Positions 25,701-59,052 of a stretch of 64,000 nucleotides of DNA are shown one piece after another. Origin of the DNA: Lytechinus variegatus (Eukaryota > Echinodermata > Echinoidea > Temnopleuroida > Toxopneustidae); NCBI RefSeq assembly GCF_018143015.1, contig NC_054740.1:70147356-70211355 (forward strand). Direction: 5' to 3'. The position numbers and the translations under genes are program-made. The notes beneath the pieces were generated by a model. It was not told where the DNA came from and did no database searches. It saw only the letters and a list, made by a program, of their open reading frames with translations. Within the stretch, counting starts at the first letter, position 1, and every line of letters starts with the position of its first letter.

Positions 25701-28700
25701 GACATGCCTTGCATGACCACAGGTATTCTTTGATCAAAGATTGAATCCAGTTTCATTAATGTGTATGAGCTCTAAGTTGATCCGGGTGTTCATCATCCAA
25801 ACTGAGAACTCCTTCCTGATGATTTGTCGCTTTTCAAATTCAAATTTGCTTTATTTCATCTTCAACAGAAAAAATAAAAAGGTTGTAAATAATTACAATG
25901 ACATTTACAAGTGAAATTTAGACAAATGATATGAATTGAGGTAGGTACAATGTATGATATTTTTCCATAAGTAAAACAAATTATTATATAAAAGCAAATA
26001 ATCATTCACATTATAAAGATTTGAGTAAATGGAGGGATCCACTAAAAAGCAATTGCTTGTAGTGTGTGGACCCCCCCTCAAAAAAAAAAAATGCCTAAAA
26101 AAACGGACACTTGGTCATGTCTTGCACGACCTCAGGTTCTCTTTGTCTAAAAACTGAATCCAGCTTCATCGATGTATATGAGCTCCATGTTGACTCCAAT
26201 GTTCATCGTCCACACTGAAAACTCCATCCTGATTCTAGTGATCCTGTCGCTTTATCGCTTGGCCTATGAGTCCTCCAGTTTCGTCGTTGAGACGAAATTT
26301 GCAGTCAGGATGTTTGATCGTGTCGAATTTGAAAAGTAAATGTCTGAGCTCTACGTTGATCTGTTCCAGTGTGAATTCTGTATGTTCCCAACCAATAGGC
26401 CTATCTTTAGCTCTATCCCTTGTTTCATTAGTCACAAGTCTGTAATGACGACCATCGCATGCCACCGAAATGACATTGTTCCTTGCCTCTTCTCGGTCGG
26501 TGGATGATATGGTAGTCTATTATTTTTCTGAAAAACATGTGACTTCCACAGTCTTCCCCCTGCCTAATTAAAGGCATCAAATAAGTGCTCGTTATCTTCA
26601 TCTGATATCTTAGTGTAAGGCATCTTTTCCATTTGCTTTCAACTGGTGAGTCTAATCTGAATTACCTAAATGACAATTGATTTACTTATTGAAGACTTTA
26701 TGCTCTAAATGCAGGATTACATGTATATAACAATTCTATTGTGCGGACAATTAAGTTCTTTAAGGGGGGAGAATTTCTCTATTTATTAGGACATTTGTTT
26801 TGCAAAATTAACATTTCGTTTCTATTTTGAAAAAATTCTAATGTGTGGATATTTGAATTTTCTGTGTACATTTTATTCACATATTGGGATATATTACTGG
26901 ATGAAAGAACATTTGATGTCCGTTTGATATTTGAATTACCATACCTAATAGGACACTTGCACTGACATAAACAGATATTTAACCTGGTTATGATTGAAAT
27001 TGTAAATGTTTTTCTTGTTAGGTGGTCTGTCTATGACAGATCACCTCTTAATTTCGTCAGAATTTTCTTATTATTTATTTATTTATTTATTTATTTTTAC
27101 GGATTTTCTTGTCGCCAAGTTATCTCAAAATGGACTTGGTCAATTTCATTGAATTTCATGTCATCTATAGGATCTGTCATGGACACGTGCAGAAAAGTTT
27201 TTCAAGGTCATCAGGTCATGATGACGTCATCTAGGCGCCATTTTGTAAAATAACATTATCAATCATATCTCCATTATCAATTATCAAAAATCAATCAAAT
27301 TATTTTCACATCAACTTCAGGTCAAGTGTCTTTAGGTCATGTCATCAAAGGTCATCTGGAGGTCAAGAAGCGCGCGTACGCGCGCGTCAAAATTTCAAAA
27401 TGCTCAAAATCACTTTTTGACCAAACGAGAGTACGTTTCAGGTCATTTTAAGCATTTCAAAATTTTGCGCGCGCGCGCATTGCGCTTCCGCGCGTAACGC
27501 CTTAACGCACTCCAGAAACACCGTTTTTTTTAACATCTTTGCATTGATAATAAAATTTTGAACAATTTGATACCTTGATCAACCTTCTACGACCATTAAT
27601 GACGAAATTAACACCCCTTGAAGTTTGCAGCACGTGTGCGCGCGAGCTCTCACTATAGGCCATATATGGGCAAAAACATGCCTCTTGAAAATTCACTGTA
27701 GCTCTTTAAATAGTCCATTGACCCCCCATTTTTTTTTCATATATCAATAGAGTATGAGTTGTAGATTCGATTTCATGTCATCAATGTCCCTAAATTATAT
27801 CATGACGTCATCAAAATAGCGCCTAAACTAAAAATTTCATTTAAAAAAAAATGACGTCATCAAATTTATGCAAATTCGGTTGTAACTTCTCGAATATAGA
27901 TTGTTTTTCGCCCAGATTTCGATATGTTGTAGTTTAGAATGTACTCTTTCTCTTCAGTCATCATGAATTTTCGTTTTGAGAAACGCATCATTGCGTAAAA
28001 CAGCGATGAAAAGAGGCATGTCATTTTTCCTCATTTTGCGTGTAATCTCTATGGGACATGACTTTTTCTCAAAACTAGATTCGACATTCCGCTATTTCGT
28101 GAGACATATCTCCATTGTTTCTTGTCAGTTTTCCCTGAGCTTTAAGTATGTTGTAGCTGAGATTCTTAGCTTTCGGAAATGTGCCCTCCATTTTTTGATC
28201 AGATGCCGGGATCATGCCCGTATTTCGCTTGCAAAATTTGAATTGTAATTCTCAAAATTGCTTACGTGTAATCTCTATGGGGAATATCGTGGCTCAATGG
28301 ATAACGCATTTGACGTGTTGGTCCGTGTTGCTGACGTGTTGGTCCGTGTTGCTGACGTGTTGGTCCGTGTAGCTGACGTGTAGGTCCGTGTTGCTGACGT
28401 GTTGGTCCGTGTTGCTGACGTGTTGGTCCGTGTAGCTGACGTGTAGGTCCGTGTTGCTGACGTGTTGGTCCGTGTTGACTACGTGCTCTGCCGGCATGAT
28501 CCGTGTAGATCCGTGTGAAGCTGCCGTGTTGATGCCGTGTTCAGTCATCTGGGGCAAAACTATCCCGGACCTCCCCGGATCATGCCGGCATTGCCGTGTT
28601 GATCCGTGAAGATCTGTGTCTATAAATCATGATGGCGAGAATAAAGACAGACCACCTAATTCGTCCACATGACGAATTAAATTCTAGTTTGATTTTGTTT

Positions 28701-34700: not shown

Positions 34701-37700
34701 TTGACTTCTGGATTGGTAATGTGTGCATGTGGAATCTATGGCTTTGTGTTTTATATTGACAAGAGGTGATCATGAGGGACACCTTTTTTAATGCTGCATG
34801 TTGGTGGAAAAGATGGGCTCTGAGTTCAGATTTAAAGGTGTCAGGGCTGTTACAATTAAAAAGTTTGGTCATTTTAGGGATTCAAAGACATACAGTATCT
34901 GGTATAATTCTGTTACAATTTTATCATAAATGCTTGCTTAATTTTTGTCTCACCTGCGAAGCAAAGTGAGACTATAGGCGCCGCTTTTCCGACGGCGACG
35001 GCGTCAACATCAAATCTTAACCTGAGGTTAAGTTTTTGAAATGACATCATAACTTAGAAAGTATATGGACCTAGTTAATAAAACTTGGCCATAAGGTAAA
35101 TCAAGTATTACTGAACATCCTATTAGAGTTTCATGTCACATGACCAAGGTCAAAGGTCATTTAGGGTCAATGAACTTAGACCATGTTGGAGTAATCAACA
35201 TCGAAATCTTAACCTGAGGTTAAGTTTTTGAAATGTCATCATAACTTAGAAAATATATGGACCTAGTTCATGAAACTTGGACATAAGGTTAATCAAGTAT
35301 CACTGAACATCCTGCATGAGTTTCACGTCACATGACCAAGGTCAAAGGTCATTTAGGGTCAATGAACTTTGGCCGAATTGGGGATATCTGTTGAATTCCC
35401 ATCATAACTTTGAAAGTTTATGGATCTGATTCATGAAACTTGGACATAATAGTAATCAAGCATCACTGAACATTTTGTGCAGGTTTCAGGTCACATGATC
35501 AAGGTCAAAGGTCATTTAGGGTCAATGAACTTTGGCCGAATTGGGGATATCTGTTGAATTCCCATCATAACTTTGAAAGTTTATGGATCTGATTCATGAA
35601 ACTTGGACACAATAGTAATCAAGCATGGCTGAACATTTTGTGCAAGTTTCAGGTCTCATGATTAAGGTCAAAGGTCATTTAGGGTCAATGAACTTTGGCC
35701 GAATCGGGGGTATCTGTTGAATTACCATCATAACTTTGAAAGTTTATTGGTCTAGTTCATTAACTCATTGAGTGCTTCGTGCACGCTACGTATCCTACTA
35801 TAACATGCCACACTCGTGCTCGCACGCCTACTATTGACTGCTTTGTGCTTGCATTGTTTCCTACCCTCGCCTGCTTCGTGCATGACTGCGCACATTCGGA
35901 ATTACAATCATTGTTACGCCGTTTTGCATTGTATTGCGCATCGCATGCACGCCGTAATTAGCACTATTGTGTGCCGTGCGAACTCTGCTTTCTGACAGAT
36001 CAACTTACTCACGCGGTTTACATTCGACTTTTTCGAGTATTTCTACATTTTTTACAAGATATGGCTCCGCCTCTGAGAGGGAAGAGACCTAGGTTTTTTG
36101 ATCCATACAAAATACTCTACAAAATGGAACTACTTGATACAACTCATATTTTAGCGGTAAAGATAATAACCAATCCATATAATGAGGACACCATTATAAG
36201 GGGTATGAAATTTTCTACAACTTTACTACACAATATTTTGTGGATAAACTAATCGTTAGAGAGTTACAAGCAATTGTAATCATGACTATTGAAAGGAGTG
36301 AATACGACTCGCTATCCCAAAATCAATGTGGCACAGGGGGTTTTGTGGCTGGCACAGGGGATTAGCATCGGATTAGCACTGTGGCGTTGGGTTATTAGTG
36401 TGTGTGGCATGTTAAGAGTTAAACTTGGACATTAGAGTAATTAAGTATCACTGAACATCCTGTGCGTGTTTCAGGTCACATGTCCAAGGTCAAAGGTCAA
36501 TGAACTTTAGCCGAATTGGGTGTATCTGTTGAATTACCATCATAACTTTGAAAGTTTATGGATCTGATTCATTAAACTTGGACATAAGAGTAATCAAGTA
36601 TCACTGAACATCCTGTTCCAGTTTCAGGTCACATGATCAAGGTCAAAGGTCATGTAAGGTCAATGAACTTTGGCCATGTTGGGGTTTTTTGTTGAATAAC
36701 CATCATATCTCTGTAAGTTTATTGGTCTAGTTCATAAAAAGAGGACATAAGAGTAACCATGTATCACTGAACATCTTGTGCGAGTTAGAGTAGTATGCAA
36801 AGTCAGCACTGCTGCTATATTGAACCGCGTGATGCAGGTGAGACGGCCAGAGGCATTCCACTTGTTATTTTTTGGTATCCTAACTATTCGCAATCATTAT
36901 ATATTTAATTACCTGTAACATGTTTTATCTTGCATCACTAAAAATAAGTTAGAGTTTATCATCAACAAATGCCTTTGCACATCTTTTGTTGTAATTCTTA
37001 TTCAGCTTCTGATTTTTTCCCAAACAGCAAGAATATACTTAAAACAGTCTTTGTAGAATCATTAGTTTTATCAGTTGATTATCCAAATCCTTACACTAAT
37101 TAAGATGTATTCTTGTTATCATTTGTAGTATTTTCTGTCTCATTCCATCTCAGAAGATTAATTTTGAATGTCTTGATTTGTTTCCTGCATGTTGTAGGAA
37201 AGCAGCAAGGAGTTTTATTAAAGGACACGTCTTCCATGACGATGTGTGTGAATACTAGTAGGATCGTGAGCATGATGCAGAGGGTACAGTCCAGAGCACG
37301 TTCCATGTACGATGCCAAAGCTTTTCTACACTGGTACCAAAGATACAGCTGTGATGAGGCAAGTACACAAGGCTCTTGGATTTAAAGAAAAAAGTCTTCA
37401 TCTTTAATCGAGTACACCTATATCAATCTATGATAATGCATTACGATAACATGGTAGGGGTGGACTGTACCAGAATGGAGGAAGAATCAAGCGAATAGAT
37501 TGTATACATCATTTCTGAAAGTTTTTTAGACATCATGTACTGTATACTTCTGTATGCATCATTGTTTTGACCAAGTAAGTTGCTCCTCTCTAAGTTAATG
37601 AAAAGAGATATTCTCTATATCAAGATTCATGACATTGATAGATTTTCATAGATGAGATTGATAGTATCTTTGAATACCTGTAATATTTGTATCAAACAAT

Positions 37701-37795
37701 CTCTTCCTTGAAAAATCTTTTAGACGGAATTTGAAGAGGCATTTGCAACAGTGAATCAAGTCATCAGGGACTATGAGAGTGCTGCTGAAGGTTGA
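22723..37795 (+). CDS. divergent tubulin, probably zeta (delta alternative)
   Basis: Eleven exons: 22723-22811, 24293-24385, 29111-29175, 30018-30155, 30615-30756, 31270-31446, 32001-32096, 33126-33198, 34574-34715, 37198-37358 and 37724-37795. Phases chain to 1248 nt, 415 aa. Tubulin landmarks: GQCGNQLGQQFW near the N-terminus, VDTEKKVI, GRGTNWAMGY, the GTP-binding SLSGGTGSGLG, the PLQHYNNLF helix, VRGD, FVEWNP, and KAFLHWYQ near the C-terminus. It is neither alpha, beta, gamma nor epsilon. It matches delta no better than expected for a sister class, so zeta is my best call by exclusion. Zeta and delta tubulins act at centrioles and basal bodies. It is about 35 residues shorter than usual, mostly in the N-terminal loop. 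Intron 10 starts GAG|gcaagt, a GC-AG intron. For exon 9 the acceptor at 34573 aligns best; an acceptor 108 bases earlier is also in frame. No stop or frameshift is seen. Confidence 0.85.
22926..23367. mobile_element. foldback MITE in tubulin intron 1
   Basis: CCGGGGACCAGTGG followed by ATTGCTGTACACACGCATG on the left is matched, inverted, by CATGCATACGTGTACAGCAAT and CCCCTGGGG on the right. Between them ACTTGTTTAGGG occurs three times (near 23211, 23251 and 23289). It is non-coding and non-autonomous. Confidence 0.65.
25216..26640 (-). mobile_element. relic IS630/Tc1-like transposase
   Basis: Minus-strand fragments resemble an IS630/Tc1/mariner-type transposase. In order they are a stretch with TLEQINVELR (26.24-26.47 kb), a catalytic-type segment ELIHINETGFNL (about 25.75-25.80 kb), and a C-terminal segment reading FLNILEKCF and FSTWKAVVKR (about 25.40-25.45 kb). 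The segment with the 'DE.GFN' motif occurs twice (about 25740-25835 and 26120-26240), so part was duplicated or two copies were joined. Many stops interrupt it and it cannot be active. It lies in tubulin intron 2 on the opposite strand. Confidence 0.6.
28285..28311 (+). repeat. tRNA A-box-like fragment beside minisatellite
   Basis: The sequence reads ATCGTGGCTCAATGGATAA then CGCATTT, like the D-arm of a tRNA (A box). It is cut off by the 21-bp minisatellite. No anticodon arm or B box follows, so it is at most a SINE or tRNA remnant. Confidence 0.35.
28312..28479. repeat. 21-bp minisatellite, 8 copies
   Basis: Eight tandem units close to GACGTGTTGGTCCGTGTTGCT. Single-base variants (TTG or TAG at two places) recur every three units, so units 3-5 and 6-8 form a 63-bp higher-order repeat. 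Degenerate partial units continue to about 28620. The peptide repeat it makes on the minus strand is an artefact. Confidence 0.9.
29560..29705. repeat. single arm related to the 33.9-kb foldback
   Basis: The segment GAAATTATTTTTATTTAG, AAACTATC, AAGAATATTATTCACCTCTT and TTGACTCTGA matches the arms of the foldback at 33869-34172, but only one arm is present. Confidence 0.5.
29735..29881. mobile_element. 147-bp hairpin MITE
   Basis: GGGGCCCGTTGCAGAAAGAG at the left and CTCTTTCTGCAACAGACCCC at the right are nearly perfect inverted repeats around a 100-bp centre that is also partly self-complementary. It lies in tubulin intron 3. A similar GGGGCCCATTTCATAAAG end without a partner occurs near 23627. 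Confidence 0.8.
33613..33634. repeat. perfect 22-bp palindrome
   Basis: GAGGAGCTCAA followed directly by its inverse TTGAGCTCCTC. It lies in a cluster of GAGCTC words around 33580-33660 in tubulin intron 8. Confidence 0.8.
33869..34172. mobile_element. foldback element, ~150-bp arms
   Basis: CATGAAATGGCCTTCTTTTT on the left and AAAAAGAAGGCCATTTCATG on the right pair over about 150 bp with few differences, including AATGAAGAATATTC and GAATATTCTTCATT. A GC-rich hairpin (GGAGCG with CGCTCC) lies just outside at about 34230. Tubulin intron 8. Confidence 0.8.
34947..36844. mobile_element. element of ~163-bp tandem units with DR1 sites
   Basis: Ends GTCTCACCTGC and GCAGGTGAGAC are inverted repeats. 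After a GC-rich left part the body is a degenerate tandem array whose units include CATCATAACTT, AACTTGGACATAA and AGGTCAAAGGTCA. Perfect AGGTCAAAGGTCA occurs at 35147, 35339, 35502, 35665, 36487 and 36640; spacing is 163 bp in the regular part. The array is interrupted at 35764-36418 by a smaller element. It sits in tubulin intron 9 and has no coding capacity. Confidence 0.75.
35764..36418. mobile_element. 655-bp insertion with TTAA target duplication
   Basis: Flanked by TTAA at 35760-35763 and 36419-36422. Removing it restores the repeat unit (TTCATTAAACTTGGACAT), as seen in an intact unit near 36568. The ends are CTCATTGAGTGC and GCATGTTAAGAG, only weakly inverted. TTAA targets are typical of piggyBac and Kolobok elements; no transposase is recognised. 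A short open frame starting MAPPLRGKRPRFF (36061-36252) could be a transposase remnant, unproven. Confidence 0.7.
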
Positions 37796-38400
37796 GGATT
37801 GATGATCAGAGACAGAGATGGTCCAAAGCTAGTCTGGTGGTTTGTTGGTGATTAGAGTGTCATCGGGAGACTATGACAGGGCTGCAGAAGGTTGAAGATT
37901 AATGAGCACAGCACTGGATGACAGAGATGGTCCAAAGTAAGTCTGATCATGTCTTGTTAATAAGAGAGAGATCAGATATGAGACAGCTGCTGGAGGTTGA
38001 GGATTGATGATCACAGACAGAGATGGTCCAAAACAAGTCTGATGATGTGTTGATGATTACAGAGTTGTCAGAGACTACGAGAGAGCTGCAGAAGGGTGAG
38101 GATCGATGCTCAGAGACAGAGATGGTCCAAAGTAAGTCTGATCATGTCTTGTTAATAAGAGAGAGATCAGATATGAGACAGCTGCTGGAGGTTGAGGATT
38201 GATGATCACAGACAGAGATGGTCCAAAACAAGTCTGATGATGTGTTGATGATTACAGAGTTGTCAGAGACTACGAGAGAGCTGCAGAAGGGTGAGGATCG
38301 ACGGGCACAGCACTGTATGACAGAGATTGTCAAGAGCAAGTCTGATGGTGTGTTGTGAGAGATCAAAGACTACGAAAGTGCTGCTGAAGGCTGTACATTG
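37770..38400 (+). repeat. tandem copies of the tubulin 3' end
   Basis: The last codons, stop and start of the 3' UTR (GACTATGAGAGTGCTGCTGA, GGTTGAGGATTGATGATC, ACAGAGATGGTCCAAAG) recur several times downstream in degenerate form, each with a stop at the same relative place. Two long blocks starting at 37931 and 38126 are almost identical, with a 195-bp period. Copies are out of the coding frame of the true gene and lie in its presumed 3' UTR. Confidence 0.75.
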
Positions 38401-43179: not shown

Positions 43180-43766
43180 CTATAAACAATGAATGTTTAG
43201 TATAATTAGTCTGAGTTTGCAGAAATGTCATAATTTGTGCCCCAACTTCACAGAAAGATAGTCATAAATAGTCATACCTTCATCTGCATCTACACGGACA
43301 TCATCCAACGTCTTTCCTGCCATTGCTTTTAGGTCTCCCTTCTCCATGCTGAAGAGTACTTTAGAAATCTTTGCTACTTGCAGTGATGCATCCGGCAGGC
43401 GGTAGTAGGCTCTGTGAGTTCTTACGTCATGGCCCATGAAGGTCGCTAAAATATCAAGTTCATTATCTTTCAAGTTCATGATTTGAGAACTGACAGCAAT
43501 GTACTTCCTGAGTTTTGTCAACCTAAGCTGATCTGGATACTTTGCTCCACACTTTTGGGCTTGATTTCGCCGCGTATCAGTTGCTCTCAAGTGGCCTCTT
43601 CCATCTGGGTTTGCAAACAAGAAAGGATTTCCATCATTGACTACTTGTGACCTTTTCTCCATCAAAAAGTCAATGTTGCTTTTCATGTCATCTGTTTTTT
43701 TTTTTTTTTTTAATATGTTTTATTGAATCAACAAAATTACAAATTTACAAGTGATTGTTACAATGC

Positions 43767-47150: not shown

Positions 47151-49899
47151 CTGTTGTCAAAGGAAGCAGCCTTGGTGTATTTCTCTTGTTTACTTTTAAT
47201 GTACGCAGTGCATGTGTGCTTACTTCTGCTTCCCACTTGAGGGTATATGATTTGATGAACTGTTTGCATTTCTTTTCCAAACCAGCATCTGCTTCCGACA
47301 GAGCATTTCCCATAAGGATTTTGGCAGCCGTCACCAGTGTATATCCGACTTTCAGTGCCAAGCTTGGTGTTGTGTACAAATGTGTATCCTTGTTAAATCC
47401 TGCAGCCTTCCTAGTTGCAGCTATGACCTCATCGAATTCGATAGGACTAATCAAATCTACCAATGAAGCTGTACCCAAGAACCAGTCGTGCAAGTTCATT
47501 TTTGTCGTATGTATGAATACTGATCTTTGTCATGCCCATGCTTCAATGTCAGCTTTTCTGCTACTTGCTGCATCAATCTATCTGATTTCACAACTCTCAA
47601 TATCTCATCATGGACTCCCATTGATATTATCATGTGCACCTTTGGGCTTACTCTTCCCTATTTCAAGTACTACTGGATCCTCCTGACACATCTTCCCCAC
47701 TTTATCCTTCCTAAATTTGCCCAGAATCTCATAGGAAAAATTGTTGTCTGAATCTGCGATAACCTTAAGGAGAGATAAAGGAATTTTGTCAGCAGGCTTG
47801 CTTGCATCACTGTTCCTCATGCTAAGTCGTTTGTGTTTTCTAATGTAACTGGCAGCGTCGGCTCCAGAACATGTGCCACATATGACAATATCATCTGAAG
47901 ATGAGCTGCCTGGCCCCCTTTCACGCTCAAAAGAAGACTCCTTTTCTTTCACTCTCTTTTTGTTTACCACAAATGTTCCTTCTTTCTTTATCTTCCCAAA
48001 TTCAACATCTCTTTCTCTTTTAGGGAGAGAGAGTGCATATTTGACCCATGGTTCGTTACTATGTTTGTTCTTGAGGTGTTCAGAAAGCTTGCTTCTAAAA
48101 ACCTTGCAAAATATACAGAAACGGTAGGGTTTCTTGTAATGTTTCTTTCTTTCACTTGCAGAGTTATTCTGATGAGAAATGTCAGAAACAATGCTCTTGT
48201 TTTCACTGCACTGACGCCTTTCCACACTTGGTTTAGCTGTGCTGAGGGGAAATTCAATACTCCCTTCAGAATCAGACTGAATGGGAGAACAGTCAGTCGG
48301 GATATAGTCAGGGTCCTCATCATCTTTAAAACTTTCAGAATGCTGCCTTTTGATAGTGAACATTCCCTCGGAGTCATTGTTGGTCTCTTCATCACTTGAT
48401 TCAACAATACTAAGGGAGCCCATCCATATTGCATTGGCAGCGTGCACCCCGCGAGCGTACGCTTGCACACTCTAAGATGGGATAATAGCGTCGGCCAGCG
48501 GCAGCTAGCTGCGATAATTAAAGCACAATAGAACTCACATCCGCTCTCGCAGCTCCCCCTGTGCCTGCTGCCGCTCGCTGCCATACTTTATGTTACATTT
48601 GATTATAGATTTAATCCTCAGCTCCCTGCATCTAGCAGCAGCTAGCGGCCGCTAGCTGCGCTGTCGCTGCCCCCCATTTCTATCAAAATTCGCAAAGGCA
48701 ATCTCACCCCGCGCCGGCCACGGCTAGCCTTCAATTCCGCGACTCGCTCTGGAATGAAGACCCGGAATGAAGAGTAAACATGTACGTCGTGGTGCCTGTA
48801 CTAGTTCCACTTGTCGTGCTACTCGACTTCAAATTATTATATTTAAAAGCATGATAATGAAAGGCGTTCCTCTTTTATGTCCGTATCGAAGGATTTCATG
48901 CAAGCGCGCTCTATTGGAAATGACTACAGCTAGCTAGCGATAGAATATGCTCGGCCGCATCGTGTCGCATGGCGACCGAGTACTACAGATCAACACGTGC
49001 GCATAATTATGAATATGACAAAAATTCTCGATCTCGATAAGTCGATGGTTCTCAATAGTTTCCGTTGTCAACGAACTGAACTGAAAATTAACGCCATCAA
49101 TAGAAATACTGCCGATTTCGAAAATGTTGCAGCTTTCGAGTTGAGATTGACACGGAAGATTCACACATGAAAAATAAGTTGAATTAATGACCTCTTTTAA
49201 CGTATGATTTTGGGACCGGATACAGATGGATTACACGCCTATTTTATCCCGTTTTATCCGAACGTCAACGTTGCTTCTTGGCACTGACAAAAATATTAAT
49301 TCCCGAGCATGAAAATCAAGAAGCGCAAGACAAACCGTTCGTTTAAATAGAATATTAATGATCGAGAAGTTGCACGAATGGTACCCATGCATATTTTTTT
49401 TACCTCTATTAAGGCCATAGTTTGAGACATCTTGGTATGAATAGGCCTATATCATCCAACTCGCCGGATAATGTCCGCCAAGAGTGTATAACTAGAGGGG
49501 TAGGCCTATTCATCTTTGCCACGGGAAGATTAATATTTTTAGAACATTTATTTTTTCTGACAGAGGCCAGATAAAATGACACAATATGAATATGATGCCC
49601 GAATGTAACTAAATTAGTGCGAACATTGATATCAACGGCAAACTAAATTTTGGAGAATGATAATGACGCCATATCATTAAACACGCTAAATCGCAAATCA
49701 ACAAAATGTCTACTTCTTTTTCTTTTGTTAGACATACTGCCTTACTTTTTATGTTGGTTTGAAATACTTCCTTTATGATATTTTTGTTTTGATTTTTTGA
49801 CATTTTGATTTTGTTTCTGACATCGTATAAATTGTTTGGGTATATTTATGTTGGGTTTTTTGTTTAACTTATGCCGAATTTTTGATATTGTAGGCACTC

Positions 49900-52400
49900 T
49901 TGATTCTATAGAAAATTATTGGGAACGCAATCTGCTTCTGTTGGACTTTTTTTTGGAAAAATACGCGAATTGTATTTCTTCCAGGAGAATAAAAGTTTAC
50001 ATTGGAAAATATTAATTGATTTCATGATATATAATTTCCACTTCAAAACAATTTCAAAAATACGTCTCGAACGATCGTGCATTAATCTAAGACTAAGATG
50101 TTGAGTACTTTTATTCCAACGTATTACCCTTTTATTGGAAAGATAAGCGAATAATATTTATTTCAGGAAAAAGAGCTTATGGTATCTGAAATAAATTCTA
50201 TATAATTTCCACCTCAAAACAATTTTGAAGTACGTTCCGATCGATCATGAGCTGTGATCTGAGAGTTGAGACCATTTATCTAATGTATTTAGGACTTATA
50301 TTTCTGACTTAATTGAAAAGATACGTGAATTGTACTTCTTTTTAGGAGAGTGTTTATTCTCAAAGGAAATTAAATTATTTCAATATAATTTCCAAATCAA
50401 AACAATTTTGAAATAATTTCTGTCTCGAACGATCTTCAATTAATCTGAGACGTTTAAAATTTTTATTCCAACCCTTTACCTCTTACCGGACCTAATAAAC
50501 CGGCCAAAGTCAATGATCAGCACCATTAGCGTACCTAAAAGGGGGGGGGGCAGACTGCCCCCCCTGACGAGTCACAATACATGCAAGTGACGTATCCCTG
50601 CCCCCCCCCCCCCCCTGACGAGTCCAAAGTGATCCCTGACGAGCCATAAGTGACCCCTCTCCTATGTGAAGACTTTTTTGCTTGTCAATTTTTTTTACCA
50701 TTTATACCTCGGTCACATTTGCTCTATGGCGGCTGTACGGCGAGTCGGAAACAGCCGTTTTAACATTTTTGAACCAGCTGCATATAGGTGGTTTGTATAT
50801 AAAACAAATGAATAAACGGCTGTTTTAATTCGCCTTACGGCTGCCGTAGATCAAATGTGACCGAGGTTTAAGTCCCGTATAAGAATCAGTGCTTTTCAGT
50901 ATCAATAATCTTCAATACTGTCTTTCTAGGCACGGGATTAAATCCGATCAGCCTTTCATCCACCAGTTTTCTATAGTGCGTTAACAATTCCCTAGTGACG
51001 CTAAAGACCACACGCAGAGGGGGGGATAGCGGGGGCGTTAAGGGTCGAATGCAAATTACAAACGCCGTCTTTTGATCGCTCTATATCATTTCGAGCAGGA
51101 ACAATAATAAAAAAAAACCCGGATGTGCGGTTTAGTAGTCCATAGTTTTTTTTCTTATTAAAAAAAAACATTGAATGAAGAAAAAGAAAACGCTTGGGAT
51201 CCAGATGACATCCCCATACAAAACATCAAACTTTTGAAAAAAAGTGAAACTGTATGATACTCATTGTAATTTCCATACTGCAGTATTTGATAAATCCAAT
51301 CATTTGAGGCCTATTTTTTTAGTTTAGCAACATTTTGTGAATAAATAGGCTAGGGCCATTACACACATAATGGGAACTGATACATGTGACAATCCTTTTT
51401 TTAGTGCCGCATGTTTTTATTCAAATGAGGAAACTCTTCACCCTCTATATTTTATTATGAACATGATGAATGGGTGCTACTGCGTATTTCGCGAACCGAT
51501 TCCATTGTTGGATGCATGGAATATCTCTGTCGTTCTTTGATTTTCGCCATCATTTCCGATTGATCATGTGTTGATGTAAGAGCGATTGTTTTGAGGTGCA
51601 AACAATTTAAGATAAATTTCATATATCTTCAGGACTGAATTCATGTTCTCTGAGAACATAAATGACACTTTCCCGGCAATATCGGAAAGGCAAATGAAAT
51701 GGAGTTACAAACATCTCAAATTAATGCAGGTTCGATCACGCATGATTTTAAATTCAATGCGAGTGTAAACGATTTAGATAACTGATATTCCCGTATATGG
51801 ACGAACCCATGTTCTGTCAGAAAAAAATGAAATGACTAATTTTCCCAACAAAGTCGAAAAGGTAATATTTTAATGGAATAAAAGTCGCAAAATTTCTTAT
51901 TCTTGATCCAATCCGACATGAGATGAAAGCATTTCAGTATGGAATATCGAGTTAAAAGATATCCTCTGTCAATAAAAATATATTTTAAGACTTTCGATGT
52001 GGAAATAATTTATTTTTGTTGGGCTATGAATACCTATATCTTTCAACAACATACGATTGTTGTTCTTGGTCCGGCCCGTTATAAAATGATGGTCGACTTT
52101 AAGAAATTATAGATATACCTATATACAGAGTTTCGATCTAGCTGATACTTCTAAAAGGTTTCGAATCGGAAAGAGATCCGACCCGACATAAAATGGCGAT
52201 ATAAAATTGACAAATATCGAGTTCATAAAGATCTTGAATTATTAAAAATACACTTCTGAAGAGTTTTGGAACGGAAAGAATATAATTCGCACTACGCTAT
52301 AATATCTACATCTTCTAACAAGATGCAATTATTGCTTGTTCTTGATCCGACCCGATATGAAATTAAGTATACAAAAAAAGTTACTCCTCCCCGTAATCAA
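49900..52400. repeat. left array of the foldback element
   Basis: About 175-185-bp degenerate units are evident at 49.93-50.46 kb (each with TTTCCACxTCAAAACAATTT and CGAACGATCxTxxATTAATC). Copies of TTGTTCTTGATCCGACC-type sequence follow at about 51.9, 52.07 and 52.34 kb. This is the inverse of the motif in the right array. A low-complexity C/G run lies near 50.54-50.62 kb. Confidence 0.65.
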
Positions 52401-53970
52401 AATTACCCTGCCGCCGCCCATCCTCCTACCCCGGATGGCGGGCAAGGGGATTTAAAAAAAAACAGTAATACATATATAATGATAATATGACAAAATATAT
52501 TTTGCGTTCAGAATTTTATGTTGCTCTATATACACAGCACATGGCGGTAAATGAACGTGGACTGAAAAAGTGACGACATGTTCTATTTCCACTCCATGCA
52601 GAATCATTGAACCTTTCGTGCCATTTCTAGTTAATTGATGCATACGCAATTGTTGATGATTATTTTACATCTCGTCTTTTTCTAACAATTTTGTCCAATA
52701 GGCGTCACTTTTCTTCTGTGTCTAATTTGTCAACAAGGTTAGAGCTGCAAAATATGTTGCAAATGTGCTTTTATCCTCTCAACGATAAAATGCGAAGGAA
52801 CAATAGATTCAATTCCTTATAGAATTAGAGCTATTGTGACAAGTTCGGGCAACTGGCACTTCGTCATTTCACAAAGGAGTGATTAGTGCCCATGATCGAA
52901 TTCATTGACCCTGAGCTTCATTGAAAACATTTACGTTACCATCTCGTTTTTTTTGTCAGGACGACCTTTGTGCTTTTCTTGGCAAAAATAACAATTACAA
53001 GAATTCTTTGAACAGGAGTGAAAGCAGGAAGCCTGACCAGGTTGACGTTATTCCAAATGGTGCAAAAATAACCCCAACAGGAAACTACAATGAGCACGCA
53101 ATAAACAGACGAACATTATATTTCAAAAGTGGTTCGGGTTATTATAATTTTGTAAATGTAATTTGAAAAATCGCGAGAGCAAAAGAAAGTTTAAAAACAG
53201 AGAAAAGAACGCAAATACAATGAATTGAAAGATGTGAAAAAAAAAACAAGTATGAAAAGTAGATCATGAAAATTTAAAGAACGGGATTTTAAAAATAGCG
53301 ACCAAGCCGACCATTATATGTTTTGGGTAGTTGGACATCAAACATGTCGGGGGGGGGGGAGAGAACACGTCCTTCCAAAAGTCAGTTAAGCGTAGGGGAC
53401 ACAAAATGTCATACACCCCACCCTCTCCCTGGCTCCCCAACAAATGGAAGCTTTAATTCATTTGATTATTTACGAACGTTCTCTAAATGTCAAAACTATC
53501 AAAATTGTTGAAGATATGCCTTATAGAAAATTCAAGCACGCTTCGTGTAGTGTTTTCGTGCTTGCACCCTTTACAAAGGCCAAATGAAATCTGATCTTAG
53601 TTATATAGCAATATAATGAGGCATATAAAGTAGCTGAAAGGGCAGCTAGGCATTGTGGCCCCGGGTAAATCTATAAGTGCCCTCACTAGTATGGACTTGG
53701 TTGTATACCCCCCCCCCCCCCCCCGATTTTTAAGTTTATCTTTCTTTTAATTATGTTAACAATTTGCAAAGATTTTGTATCCCCATGCCGACACAAAAGG
53801 TAAGTTATAATCAAAGTTCTAATAATCCCGCCTTCTAACAAGGTATTCTCTTTAGATGCCTATTGACATTACCGCCCTAAAAATATATATGTACATAATT
53901 ATACCAAAGGGCTATACATACTTTTCAACGTGCCCAGGATTTTATAGGTCTAATAATTTTTGACACCCAG

Positions 53971-54004
<34 letters not shown>
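53971..54004 (+). repeat. 34-base poly(C) run
   Basis: Uninterrupted C from 53971 to 54004, with another run of about 17 at 53708-53724 and others near 50.6 kb. Such runs are prone to length errors in sequencing and can form i-motif/G-quadruplex structures. Confidence 0.9.
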
Positions 54005-54005
<1 letters not shown>

Positions 54006-54539
54006 TTTACATGAAATCGCTGAACAATTTTTCAAAAGATTCTAGTGTTGGATGACTTTTAAAAGCATTAAAATATTATAAGAGGGCAAAAAAGTAGACT
54101 CCACAGGATGTTCTTTCTTATCCTCTTTTAAGATTAACTGATTAAATACCTAACAATGGTGCTGTTTAAGTCATTAAAGATCAAAGCGGTCATTTGCTTT
54201 CACAATGTAATGCGCGGCAAGTTCTTTTCAAAGAAAGTATCCAACGTAGATTATATTGATTAATTATCATTGAATGGTCATGGGCGTAGCGGACGTAACT
54301 ATTCTGCGAAAGATCCTGCTCTTTTCATTGCGCTTGAGCGTTTTTCAGACTACTCGTTACAATGGGCTTCTAAATTGATTGTGTATACATTGCACGAGTA
54401 TGGAAACATAATGAATTGCGAAGAAGCACCATTACACTCACCTGCTGCGACAAAATAATCCAATGATTATGTAAAATGAAATGAAATTACTTGAATACTT
54501 TTGCATCAAATATTATGGCATAAAATCACAAATTTTGTA

Positions 54540-56790
54540 ATTTGAACCATCAAATTAATGGCAAGGTGAATTATATCATTCTAAAACAGGAACAAGCGAT
54601 TATCGTGCATTGGTGGAAGAAATAGTTAATTTTTAAGCAGGGTTAATTAGATATATATGAATTCTTCCACCTTGAAACGTACTAGAAGTATTTATAAAAT
54701 CATTTATTAGACAGTTTTTGGCTCAATATTTCGTACATTTATGCCTTTATTTCGTGTCGGAGCAGAAATAAACACACAAGCGATAATCGTACATTGTTTG
54801 AAAATACCGTAGATTATTGCGAAAGGCAGTCAGATGCTTTCCGCCTCATAACTATTTAGAAATCTACGGCCTATTTTATCTATTAACATGCCAAATATTT
54901 TGCGTCATTTCATGTCGGGTCGGATTCAAGAACAAGCTATCATCGTACATTGTTCGAAGAAAAGAAAAGTTATTTTATTTCCGCCTTAAAACTATTTTCG
55001 AATAATCTAGGACACATGTTATCTGTCAATGTTCCATATATTTTGTTTTCTGGTCGAATTCAAGAACAAGCGGTTATCGTACATTGTTCAAAGAAATACG
55101 TAATTATTTCGCAAGTTTTATTATATGAACACGAATCTTTCCACCTAGAAACGTATCAGAAATATTTTCAAAACCATTTAAGACACTTTTTAGCCCAATA
55201 TGTCATTTTTTATACCTTCATTTCTCGGTTCATTTCGTGCCAGAGCGGAAACAAACACGCAAGCGATAATCGTACATTGTTCAAAAATGCCGTTACAACG
55301 AAGGTAATTGGATTCTTTCCGCCTTAAAACTATTTAAAAGTATATTTTGAATAATCTACGACCCATATCTATTAATATTCCATATATTTTGTTTTATCAA
55401 ATGTCTGGTCGAATTCAAGAACAAGCGATCGTCGGACATCGTTCAAAGAAATGCATAATTATTTCGGAAGTTTAATTATATGAACACGAATCTTTCCACC
55501 TTGAAACGTACCAGGAATGTTTTTAACACCATTAAAAACACTTTTTAGCTCAATATTTCATTCTTTTATACCTTCATTTCGTGCCAGAGTGGAAACAAAC
55601 ACACAAGCGATAATCGTACATTGTTGGAAAATATCGTAGATTATTACGAAAGGTAATTAGATTCTTTCCGCCTTAAAACCATTTTAAAAGTATATTTCGA
55701 ATAATCTAGGATCCGTGTAATCTATTAATATTTCATACATTTTGTTTTATTACATATCTGTTCGAATTGCGACGATTATCGTACATTGTTCAAAGAAATA
55801 CATAATTATTTCGTAAAGTTTAGATACATGAATACAAATCTTTCCACATTGAAACGTACCAGAAATATTTTTAAAACCTCTTAAGACACTTTCTAGCTCA
55901 ATATTTCATTCTTTTATACTTTCATTTCGTGCCGGAACGGACCTAAAACTATTTAAAAGTAGGCCTATATTTTGAATAATCTACGACCCATTTATATTCC
56001 ATATATTTGTTTTATTAAATGTCTGGTCGAATTCAAGAACAAGCGATCATCGGACATGGTTCAAAGAAATGCATAATTATTTCGCAAGTTTGATTATATG
56101 AATACGAATCTTTCCACCTTGAAACGTACCAGAAATATCTTTATAACCATTAAAAACACTTTTTAGCTCAATATTTCCTTAATTTCCCCGTTCATTTCGT
56201 GCCGGAGCGGAAACAAACAGGCAAGCGATAATCATACATTTGGGAAAATACCGTAGATTACTATACGAAGGGTAATTAGATTCATTCCGCCTTCAAACTA
56301 TTTAAAAGTATTTACGACCCATTTATCTATTAATATTCCATATCTTGTATTATTGATTGTCTGGTCGAATTCAAGAACGAGCGATTATCGTACATTGTTC
56401 TAATAAATACATAATTATTTCGTAAAGTTTAGTTACATGAATACAAATCTTTCCACATTGAAACGTACCAGAAATATTTTTAAAACCTCTTAAGACACTT
56501 TTTAGCTCAATATTTCATTCTTTTATACTTTCATTTCGTGCCGGAACGGACCTAAACAAACACGCAAGCGATGATCTTACATTGCTAGAAGGTCCTATTT
56601 CATGTCGGGGTCGGATTAAGAATAAGTGATGATCGTACTTTGTTGGAAGAAATAGATCATTATTACGCAACGGAAATAATATAAGACTAATATCAATATG
56701 AATCTTTCCACCTCGAAATGTATAAGAATTATTTTGCTAAGAATCTAAGACACTTTTCAGCTCAATATTTCATACTTTAATACCTTCATT
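54540..56790. repeat. right array of the foldback element
   Basis: The word GCGATAATCGTACATTGTT, or close variants, occurs about a dozen times from 54.78 to 56.63 kb with alternating spacing near 160 and 180-190 bp. This makes a dimeric unit of roughly 340 bp. Other recurring words are TTTCCACCTTGAAACGTACC, TTTAGCTCAATATTTCAT and CTTTCCGCCTTAAAACTATT. Copies differ by point changes and small indels. Confidence 0.8.
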
Positions 56791-57089
56791 TCGTGTCGGG
56801 CAGACAAGAAAATCGCCGCATCGGTCGCGCACATTTCACCAACGGATTTAGAAAGCACATCATTTTGAGTACGAGTATTCGCCTGCAAGTTGGCCGCGTG
56901 CAAGCTGCGAGAAGCGGCGAGAAGCTGCAATGATAAAATCTAGGATTAATGATTCCTGTTAATCTGCTTTAATCTGAGCAGCGCGCCGCCGCTAGCTGCG
57001 TCTAGCGGGGAGATACATCCTGTTCACTAATTACCGCAGCGGGGGTGTGCTCGCGGGGTGCACGCTGCCAATACAATATGGATGCGGTC

Positions 57090-59052
57090 CAACAATACTA
57101 ATAGCATCTGTTAGAATGCAGTTTGGACTAGATTCATCTGTTGGCTCAAGAGGTGTCTTGTTGGTAACCTGTGTTTGGGAGTCGGTAAGACCAGGCTCAC
57201 CAGGTACCTGACTGCAGAAACCGTAAAAGCATGTCGCCTGATTCTTCAGCCAGTACCTGAGAGGAATGAATATCAAATACAACTCATCAACGATATGCCT
57301 CGTCTATTATACCTGAAAAAGTTGGAAATCCTACTTTCACTGGATATGAGTCTAAACCATAGAATGATGCAGCTATTTGTTACTTATGTTTACATGTTTT
57401 GTTCCATCTGCCCTAATCAAACTACAGAATCCTTGTGACACAAAATCAATGGGGCCACACATTTTAGTTAGTGCTACACAATGTATATGGATTTTGTGTT
57501 TACAAGATTCCACTGTACATCAAGGCTTGAAACAGTAGGTCCGACTGAACTAATTTACTTCTCCTGATTCTCAAATCCTTACTTCAAGCCCTGCTGTACA
57601 TGTAAACAAGTTATATTTGACCCGGCATTTATTTGAAATGAAATTATCAATGTACTAACCTTTGCAATGTACATGTGTGTCTTCTTCTTACTAACCAACC
57701 GCACAGCAACAAAGTCTTCAGGGTTGACACTGTTAATGACAGAAAAAAAAGAACATTCTTAATTCTAGGGTGTTCTGACTACAGGTGTACCTACATGTAA
57801 GAATATAACCATTTCATAGTTAGTCAACATATAAAAGCAGGGAAGCATTGTATTTGGTTAACATCTAACTGTTGTTTCCTCAAGACAGTGATGACACTCA
57901 ATGAGTAGATGACATGCAACAAAATTCCCATACCTTGTATCCTGCTTGGAACACGTATCCGCTTTAGGGGGGTCTTCTGGGTCACCTGAATTGGTAACTG
58001 GTGGTGGTTGCTGGCTCTGTCTGGTTGGCATCAGCTTCTCACTCTGTGTCTCTTCCTCTGAGTTATCTTCTGGGAATACGGTGGTTTTACCTGTTCTAAC
58101 ATCCTTGCATACATAGAGGTCAACATATGCAACATTGACACACTCTCCATCGTTCTGTAAACATGGATCACAGAAGCACGATAGTTTGCGCACAGCAATG
58201 ATGTTTGGCTCAATGGAGACAACGCTATGAAAAAGTCGCGTATTGTCAACAGTTTTGGTTGTCTGGCGATCCCTGGCTCTGTCTATGTCGGACACCCAAA
58301 AAGCCGTACGCTGGAAATGGTAACACTTGTCTTCATTTGCTTCTGTTGGAGCCGGTCGGTGCAGTGCTCTTTTACATACAAGTAAAGATCATGTGCATTG
58401 GCTATGATGGCATTTCCAGCCATTACAGCATCTGTGGCCTGGTGTTTGATAACTGCACTTTCCTCGTCACTGGGACCTTTCCCATGGCGCGAGCCAAAAA
58501 ATTCATGTTGGAACTGCACGCCATAGTCCTGTTTGCCATATGAGAAATCCATGAAAGGGCCTCTTGATTTATACTGGTTGCCACATCCATCTGAGAATCT
58601 AACAATTCTTTTGCAATCAGTCTTCAGGTGATTAATGGCTACTTCTGAAAACTTGTGGACGGCGTGGTAGTCATGTGTGTTATCATCGCTTATCATTAAT
58701 AATGAGTCTATTGTTTTTTCACCACACCTCGGGCACTGATAATAAGTGACAATGGGGTGTAATGTAGCCGACGCATGCCCCCAATGTACACTTTGTATCT
58801 CGTCTTGAAAGCGACAAGAGTAATTTTCAGCAAAATCTAGTACCATAATAATGCAGCCTTCAGGTGGATTTTCTGATACTCTGCGGAACTGGTCCCCTTG
58901 CCAAGATGCTGTAAACAGGTGCAGTGCTAAATTAAATTTAGTTACAGTCTCTTCCTGCAGCTCCTCCAGCAGTTTCTCCAATGTCCCTTCCTGTTGTTTC
59001 AGCACCTTTTTTTACCTTTAGACTGAGTCTGATCACCTTCAGTGGAAATCAT
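57090..59052 (-). pseudogene. RNase H/DDE-like transposon-derived gene
   Basis: Three exons on minus: 59052-57934, 57729-57660 and 57256-57197, with GT-AG introns and matching phases (IAK|VLAEESGDMLLRFLQSGTW). The first exon holds the family core: VLDFAENYSC, EIQSVHWGHA, TLHPIVTYY, then paired cysteines (CPRCGE), NTHDYHAV, VRFSDGCGNQYKS and FFGSRHGKGPSDE. The spaced acidic residues (D in LDFAEN, D in FSDG, D/E in HGKGPSDE) suggest an RNase H-like nuclease fold. The C-terminal part has a CFCDPCLQNDGEC knuckle. Related unnamed proteins are abundant in molluscs, cnidarians and lancelets. Two frame disruptions lie in exon 1 (a run of seven A near 59.01 kb and a shift near 58.35 kb), so the copy is probably inactive. 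A second open frame leads from its last exon toward the recombinase-like gene. Confidence 0.65.

Follow-up and report, generated by a model that had tools for sequence, protein, structure and literature searches.

A stretch of 64,000 nucleotides from the sea urchin Lytechinus variegatus (RefSeq assembly GCF_018143015.1, contig NC_054740.1, positions 70,147,356 to 70,211,355; hereafter the window) harbours at positions 48414–57090 a transposable element that is enclosed between two exact copies of a 12-bp sequence and is devoid of recognisable coding capacity. Which kind of transposon leaves such a signature, and which enzyme moves it? An initial annotation, made from the window alone, had proposed a foldback transposon whose arms are tandem repeats and whose target duplication measures 12 bp. 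Comparison with the other copies in the genome leads to a different answer: the element is probably a large non-autonomous cut-and-paste transposon that inserts at TWA targets and is moved in trans by an ISAzo13/Zator-like transposase.

Ends, copies and target duplications

The ends of the window copy were set by comparison with other copies, and the borders of a multi-copy DNA transposon had been drawn correctly in the initial annotation, give or take a base. The features at the two ends are the following:

48414–57090, no strand assigned: the element, GGGAGCCCATCC...GGATGCGGTCC
48415–48456, plus strand: left arm of the terminal inverted repeat (TIR), 42 nt
57049–57090, minus strand: right arm of the TIR, 42 nt, 93% complementary to the left arm
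48402–48413, no strand assigned: left copy of the 12-bp repeat CAACAATACTAA
57090–57101, no strand assigned: right copy of the 12-bp repeat, its first C doubling as the last base of the element
48411–48413, no strand assigned: left copy of the 3-bp target duplication TAA, equal to the final three bases of the 12-bp repeat
57099–57101, no strand assigned: right copy of the 3-bp target duplication TAA
57091–57098, no strand assigned: eight additional bases, AACAATAC, between the element and the right TAA; the same eight precede the left TAA

Both the exact 12-bp direct repeat and the inverted termini had been noticed before and are confirmed. Within the window CAACAATACTAA is matched exactly at 48402 and 57090 only, and there are no reverse-complement copies. 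The family consensus of the element termini is GGGAGCCCATCC...GGATGCGGTCCC, the final C of which is absent from the right end of the window copy (GGATGCGGTCC).

The genome searched is an 869.6-Mb assembly of 33 contigs. The first 299 bases of the element match at least 41 places (best 40 of 83 candidates scored) and the last 252 bases at least 40 (best 40 of 81 candidates scored). A 30-base core of the TIR, allowing up to three mismatches, occurs at 80 sites, 39 forward and 41 reverse, against 0 and 0 for the same core read backwards. Thirty-five end pairs were assembled, comprising the window copy, 20 further whole copies, the ends of 13 further pairs and those of one diverged relative; TIR sites lacking a partner were excluded, for example C4:339686, C1:72777860, C11:30093244, C6:24003921, C1:46339608, C1:46375422, C4:32358868, C4:38758666, C16:11981060, C2:41375474, C2:41418199 and C4:47974147. 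An exact 3-bp duplication flanks GGGAGCCC... and ...GGTCCC in 30 of the 35 pairs (TTA in 20, TAA in 10), and none of these 30 carries a duplication longer than 3 bp. Aligning genomic copies and their flanks, a check recommended in the initial annotation, upholds the end points, which recur in other copies, and replaces the 12 bp by TTA or TAA: as a rule of the family, the 12-bp duplication is refuted by the ends of the other copies.

The 21 copies read whole, the window copy included, measure 7.0–9.4 kb. Some other end coordinates are separated by 10–14 kb and, in a single instance, by 57 kb; in this last interval, C4:45598324–45655650, two intact family ends with TTA on each side probably enclose large nested insertions. 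Compared pairwise over their left 1.7 kb, the 21 copies have a median identity of 98.6% (210 pairs), the low values of L011 being due to an internal deletion. Copies L016 and L017, which lie ∼336 kb apart on C4 in different flanks and have a TTA duplication each, are 99.5% identical over 8.6 kb.

The coding relative and its transposase

The absence of a transposase from the element, already remarked upon in the initial annotation, is borne out: the longest stop-to-stop open reading frame (ORF) wholly within it spans 146 amino acids and is located in the tandem array, and none of 10 element ORFs has a Pfam match above cut-off. The search for a larger copy with a transposase, also advocated there, led to a diverged relative at C6:34148675–34170352, whose TIRs are of the same type, lie 21.7 kb apart and have TTA on both sides. 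Similarity to the window element amounts to 73% over the first ∼0.6 kb of the relative and, at the right end, to 88% over the last ∼0.19 kb, and further blocks of similarity extend up to about window position 54.17 kb. Past the similar left part are located ORF pieces that resemble parts of a transposase:

34153724–34154032, plus strand: ORF piece of the C6 relative
34154751–34155215, plus strand: ORF piece of the C6 relative
34155927–34156235, plus strand: ORF piece of the C6 relative
34156130–34156909, plus strand: ORF piece of the C6 relative

The pieces carry SADNKNKV, HDFPTPGYA and LLVDGGPDCN, with DSALNPVEHLW in another frame, and terminate in a finger-like stretch (CDKMGCRYVF...DHRRKVH). 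They are likely to be exon-like parts of a DD43E transposase; the second D and the E are separated by 43 residues, as compared with 42 in three ISAzo13 proteins. Related transposase loci occur elsewhere in the genome, among them C6:3171197 and C6:6397060; the closest, at C16:16788370 (83%), has its D43E stretch of 43 residues open over 199 amino acids. In the part of the C6 locus read, which leaves 34161601–34164399 (2.8 kb) outside, the element's own TIR is the only significant inverted repeat that spans the pieces. The pieces have no tblastn match at E 1 in the 21 window-type copies.

The C6 relative also contains a 378-amino-acid ORF (L058:832–1965, C6:34165231–34166364). Its C-terminal part presumably resembles a BEN domain, and in Pfam it obtains sub-threshold matches only, for instance to leucine-zipper models.

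The likeness of the C6 pieces to ISAzo13 was tested by profile comparison. An ISAzo13 fragment used as a query retrieved plasmid-borne genes, many of them annotated as ISAzo13 family. Seven of eight fetched loci provided the ISAzo13 rows, the Methylomagnum protein being excluded as part of its core is missing, and five of six loci provided the IS630 rows, L085 having no usable ORF. With hhalign, two host-genome rows matched the seven ISAzo13 rows with a score of 47.8 (P 4.3e-6) in an alignment that covers both D regions, HDF and E; with the C16 row added, the score was 64.3 (P 1.4e-8, probability 95.5). The controls with two rows gave 18.9 for four Harbinger rows (P 0.17), 16.1 for reversed ISAzo13 and 22.6 for the best of 50 column shuffles, and Harbinger against three host rows gave 18.8. 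This homology is seen at the profile level, for the relative rather than for the window family. The enzyme falls in the ISAzo13/IS630-Tc1-mariner neighbourhood, with ISAzo13 as the favoured placement, and is not Harbinger-like. In the available sections of PMC10045372, Zator is described as a eukaryotic relative of ISAzo13, both having 3-bp duplications as found here, and the accessible part of PMC7386202 treats it as a separate superfamily near IS630.

A number of observations weigh against this attribution. The C6 pieces have no match above cut-off in Pfam, the ISAzo13 model included, or in NCBIfam, where the sole signal is a sub-threshold one to OrsD on the zinc-finger-like tail; the piece with the second D retrieves nothing of note from the PDB (one match, E 0.46); and DDE_Tnp_ISAZ013 (PF07592) run over the genome yields two chance-level matches, none above cut-off. 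IS630 is matched too, with scores of 40.6 for two rows and 41.5 for three (P 3.6e-5), and the C16 row taken alone scores higher with IS630 (34.3) than with ISAzo13 (29.7). As ISAzo13 and IS630 rows also match one another (score 40.2), ISAzo13 is favoured rather than proven. The kinship with Zator is putative, being drawn from the published description, and a literature search turned up nothing that pairs Zator with DD43E; unlike Zator and ISAzo13, moreover, the window element is non-coding. Transposase pieces occur within one TIR-bounded copy only. An interruption of its frame falls between the second D and the E, and the sequence read covers all but 2.8 kb of that element. None of the other transposase places coincides, when compared by eye, with a listed TIR site. 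We infer from this single diverged copy that the C6 transposase lineage moves the window family, and this is the weakest step of the argument. A clean 3-bp duplication is also missing from five of the 35 pairs (window copy, L015, L026, L037 and L047).

A further point against the attribution opens a rival reading, in which the same anatomy is that of a non-autonomous PIF/Harbinger element mobilised by a DDE_Tnp_4 transposase: the 3-bp TWA target duplication is the hallmark of PIF/Harbinger, according to the available part of PMC4482050. Genes of the DDE_Tnp_4 type are abundant in this genome, with at least 150 matches (best 150 of 458 candidates scored), and many of the matches listed have an identical score, which suggests recent copies. 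A search of the literature for Harbinger among the transposable elements of Lytechinus and sea urchins came up empty. The match borders of the four Harbinger families examined (two loci each, L063–L070, with L067/L068 compared without its 5' border) are, however, unlike GGGAGCC, for example AAGCCTAGGTCACAT or AAGGCCCGGTCACAT; with no matching TIRs among these four families, a Harbinger source of the transposase is unlikely. None of the best 150 of 458 DDE_Tnp_4 places lies between paired TIRs when these are compared by eye, and the transposase-like pieces of the TIR-bounded relative are unlike four Harbinger proteins of the same genome, as the control score given above indicates, and have no DDE_Tnp_4 match. 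On this evidence PIF/Harbinger membership is unlikely.

Interior organisation and neighbouring repeats

The interior of the window copy contains the following features:

54581–56815 (about; extent by profile), plus strand: main tandem array, period ∼355
∼51902–52362, minus strand: inverted block of array-like units, ∼460 bp, a relative of the right array
∼50029–50433, plus strand: three ∼180-bp repeats, weakly like the right array
48504–48938, no strand assigned: left subterminal cluster of six GCTAGC motifs
56991–56996, no strand assigned: single GCTAGC motif near the right end

Tandem Repeats Finder reports a period of ∼355 over 55049–55941 within the right-hand array. The array unit has 293 matches; among the matches listed, those compared by eye fall in or beside element copies. 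The initial annotation had described arrays of one repeat family in opposite orientation at 50–52.4 and 54.5–56.8 kb. This description is accurate for the block at ∼51902–52362, which matches the right array in inverted orientation (nhmmer with a single unit: E 2.4e-7; profile runs give better E-values that are partly circular, as minus-strand matches of other copies fed the profile), with 0 matches in 20 block-shuffled elements. It fails for the repeats at ∼50029–50433, whose similarity is weak (best profile E 2.1e-4) and whose orientation is the same as that of the right array. The mirror relation is clear for the ∼460-bp block only; for the greater part, the left half does not mirror the right. 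The subterminal GCTAGC motifs, for their part, are as described at the left end, with six in the first ∼700 bases against a mean of 0.17 and a maximum of 4 in 1000 mononucleotide shuffles; the right end has only one. The cluster adjoining the left TIR is present in the five copies inspected for it, L009 having one motif fewer, and its motifs may be transposase binding sites.

A hairpin of ∼170 bp at 50702–50871, with 42-nt arms that are 86% complementary, has ends (ACCTCGGTCACATTTG) resembling those of Harbinger family L069 of the same genome (CCCGGTCACATA) and may represent a small nested transposon. For the sister elements at C2:41375474 and C16:11981059, a search of 11 kb and 6 kb, respectively, revealed no left end that matches. 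One sister element whose right end is similar has an array of another kind (L060:617–1913): the unit measures 396 bp and is repeated 3.3 times, two of the units holding an open frame of 131 amino acids and a third one of 112. Elsewhere in the window, tandem repeats occur at 35004–35747 (unit 163–192 bp), 37759–38346 (∼96/195 bp) and 28311–28485 (21 bp). The sequence AGGTCAAAGGTCATTTA, similar to the end of the 35004–35747 repeat unit, also adjoins element copies L024 and L031; at other places, therefore, repeats of this sort may have served as insertion sites of the element.

Irregular junctions and their meaning

How, then, did the window copy acquire a 12-bp repeat? At the right end of the family, ...GGATGCGGTCCC is followed directly by the duplication; in the window, ...GGATGCGGTCC is followed by AACAATAC and then by TAATAGC. 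The left flank of the window copy reads ...CAACAATAC TAA and continues into GGGAGCC. The 11–12-bp repeat is the TAA duplication plus 8 nt identical to the left flank, with one C of the element lost. When the flanks are joined with a single 12-bp copy, an uninterrupted minus-strand reading frame results (...DAISIVESSDEETNND...), which suggests that the pre-insertion site had one such copy. No paralogous empty site was found for the window copy, as its left flank matched only itself in the genome, and the empty site was therefore inferred by joining the flanks.

The reading frame split by the element comprises 47608–48413 and 57091–57303 on the minus strand and is otherwise open. It holds a finger-like motif, and a separate ORF at 43228–43719 ends in a tyrosine-recombinase-like stretch (HDVRTHRAYYR); we take the two to resemble a Crypton-like or derived gene. 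Pfam gives nothing above cut-off for either.

Two further copies bear on the junction. Copy L037 mirrors the window case, with TTACAGGAT on both sides (9 bp) and GGGAGCC lost from the left end, and L015 has flank-like filler inside its right TIR, next to a flank of low complexity. The right junction of the window copy is probably repair filler copied from the opposite flank.

A different account would be that the transposase occasionally makes cuts of longer stagger, in which case the duplications of the window copy (11–12 bp) and L037 (9 bp) are genuine; this would be compatible with mobilisation by an ISAzo13/Zator-like enzyme. Flank matches of at least 9 nt are indeed found in 6 of 35 true pairs as against 10 of 1190 swapped pairs, the flanks of the window copy, L015 and L037 having been extended to the TIR break both for the true pairs and for the swapped ones. 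A family with several discrete duplication lengths is also known from the literature: IS481EU has unequal duplications of ∼4, ∼15 and ∼25 bp and differs in its TGT...ACA ends, where ends are given, from the GGG...CCC ends and the 3-bp rule seen here (available sections of PMC10045372). Yet in both clear cases the end with the extra copy is also damaged, by the loss of one nucleotide in the window and of GGGAGCC in L037, and TWA is present where the normal 3-bp duplication would be. The filler of L015 lies inside the TIR, and among the six long-match pairs L012 looks to have a tandem repeat as its target, with L026 as a further possible case, and the match of L011 is situated far from the element. 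A longer stagger is doubtful. The foldback with a genuine 12-bp duplication is very improbable. It can draw on the exact repeat at the window copy, on the inner block that is inverted relative to the right array and on a certain family resemblance: FB/Galileo and the sea urchin TU foldbacks are DNA transposons with a repeat-rich interior, as here. The architecture also recalls Tetris, a foldback of Drosophila virilis that is non-autonomous and has internal tandem repeats of ∼220 bp as compared with ∼355 bp here; in the accessible part of PMC4079207, which mentions sea urchin foldbacks as well, Tetris is described as having long TIRs that contain the repeats, whereas the present element has TIRs of 42 bp and a mostly one-sided array. 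The long repeat-built inverted arms of FB/Galileo/TU and their 7–9-bp duplications, a figure given in the initial annotation, were not found here. The prevalence of 3-bp duplications and a left half that is for the most part not mirrored leave the foldback class without its defining traits in this family.

The preferred reading remains a non-autonomous element moved by an ISAzo13/Zator-like enzyme. A transposase made elsewhere would bind the short TIRs, perhaps aided by the GCTAGC-rich subterminal DNA, and insertion at TTA or TAA would produce the 3-bp duplication, around an interior that is non-coding and carries an expanded tandem array. Such mobilisation in trans is in principle like that of maize Ds with Ac. 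The enzyme would most likely stem from the C6:34148675–34170352 lineage, as a DD43E enzyme akin to ISAzo13/Zator and neighbouring the IS630-Tc1-mariner group. The window copy would have inserted at TAA, its right end losing one base and acquiring eight copied from the opposite flank, most probably when the junction was repaired. It is possible, and proposed here tentatively, that the family represents an undescribed eukaryotic lineage descended from ISAzo13-type insertion sequences, with a DD43E transposase bearing a zinc-finger-like tail, strict TWA targets that resemble those of Harbinger by convergence, rare long coding elements, dominant array-bearing non-autonomous derivatives and ends sometimes repaired from the opposite flank.

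The signature of a single copy can be misleading: a striking 12-bp duplication turns out to be an irregular junction in a family that follows a 3-bp TWA rule. Non-coding families are often classified by target duplication and TIRs alone. If the link to the transposase is true, a TWA duplication need not mean Harbinger, and the ISAzo13/Zator group would gain from this family a transposase that can be tested, along with recent copies. The opposite-flank filler at some ends, in turn, preserves a trace, left in nature, of integrations that were irregular or underwent repair.

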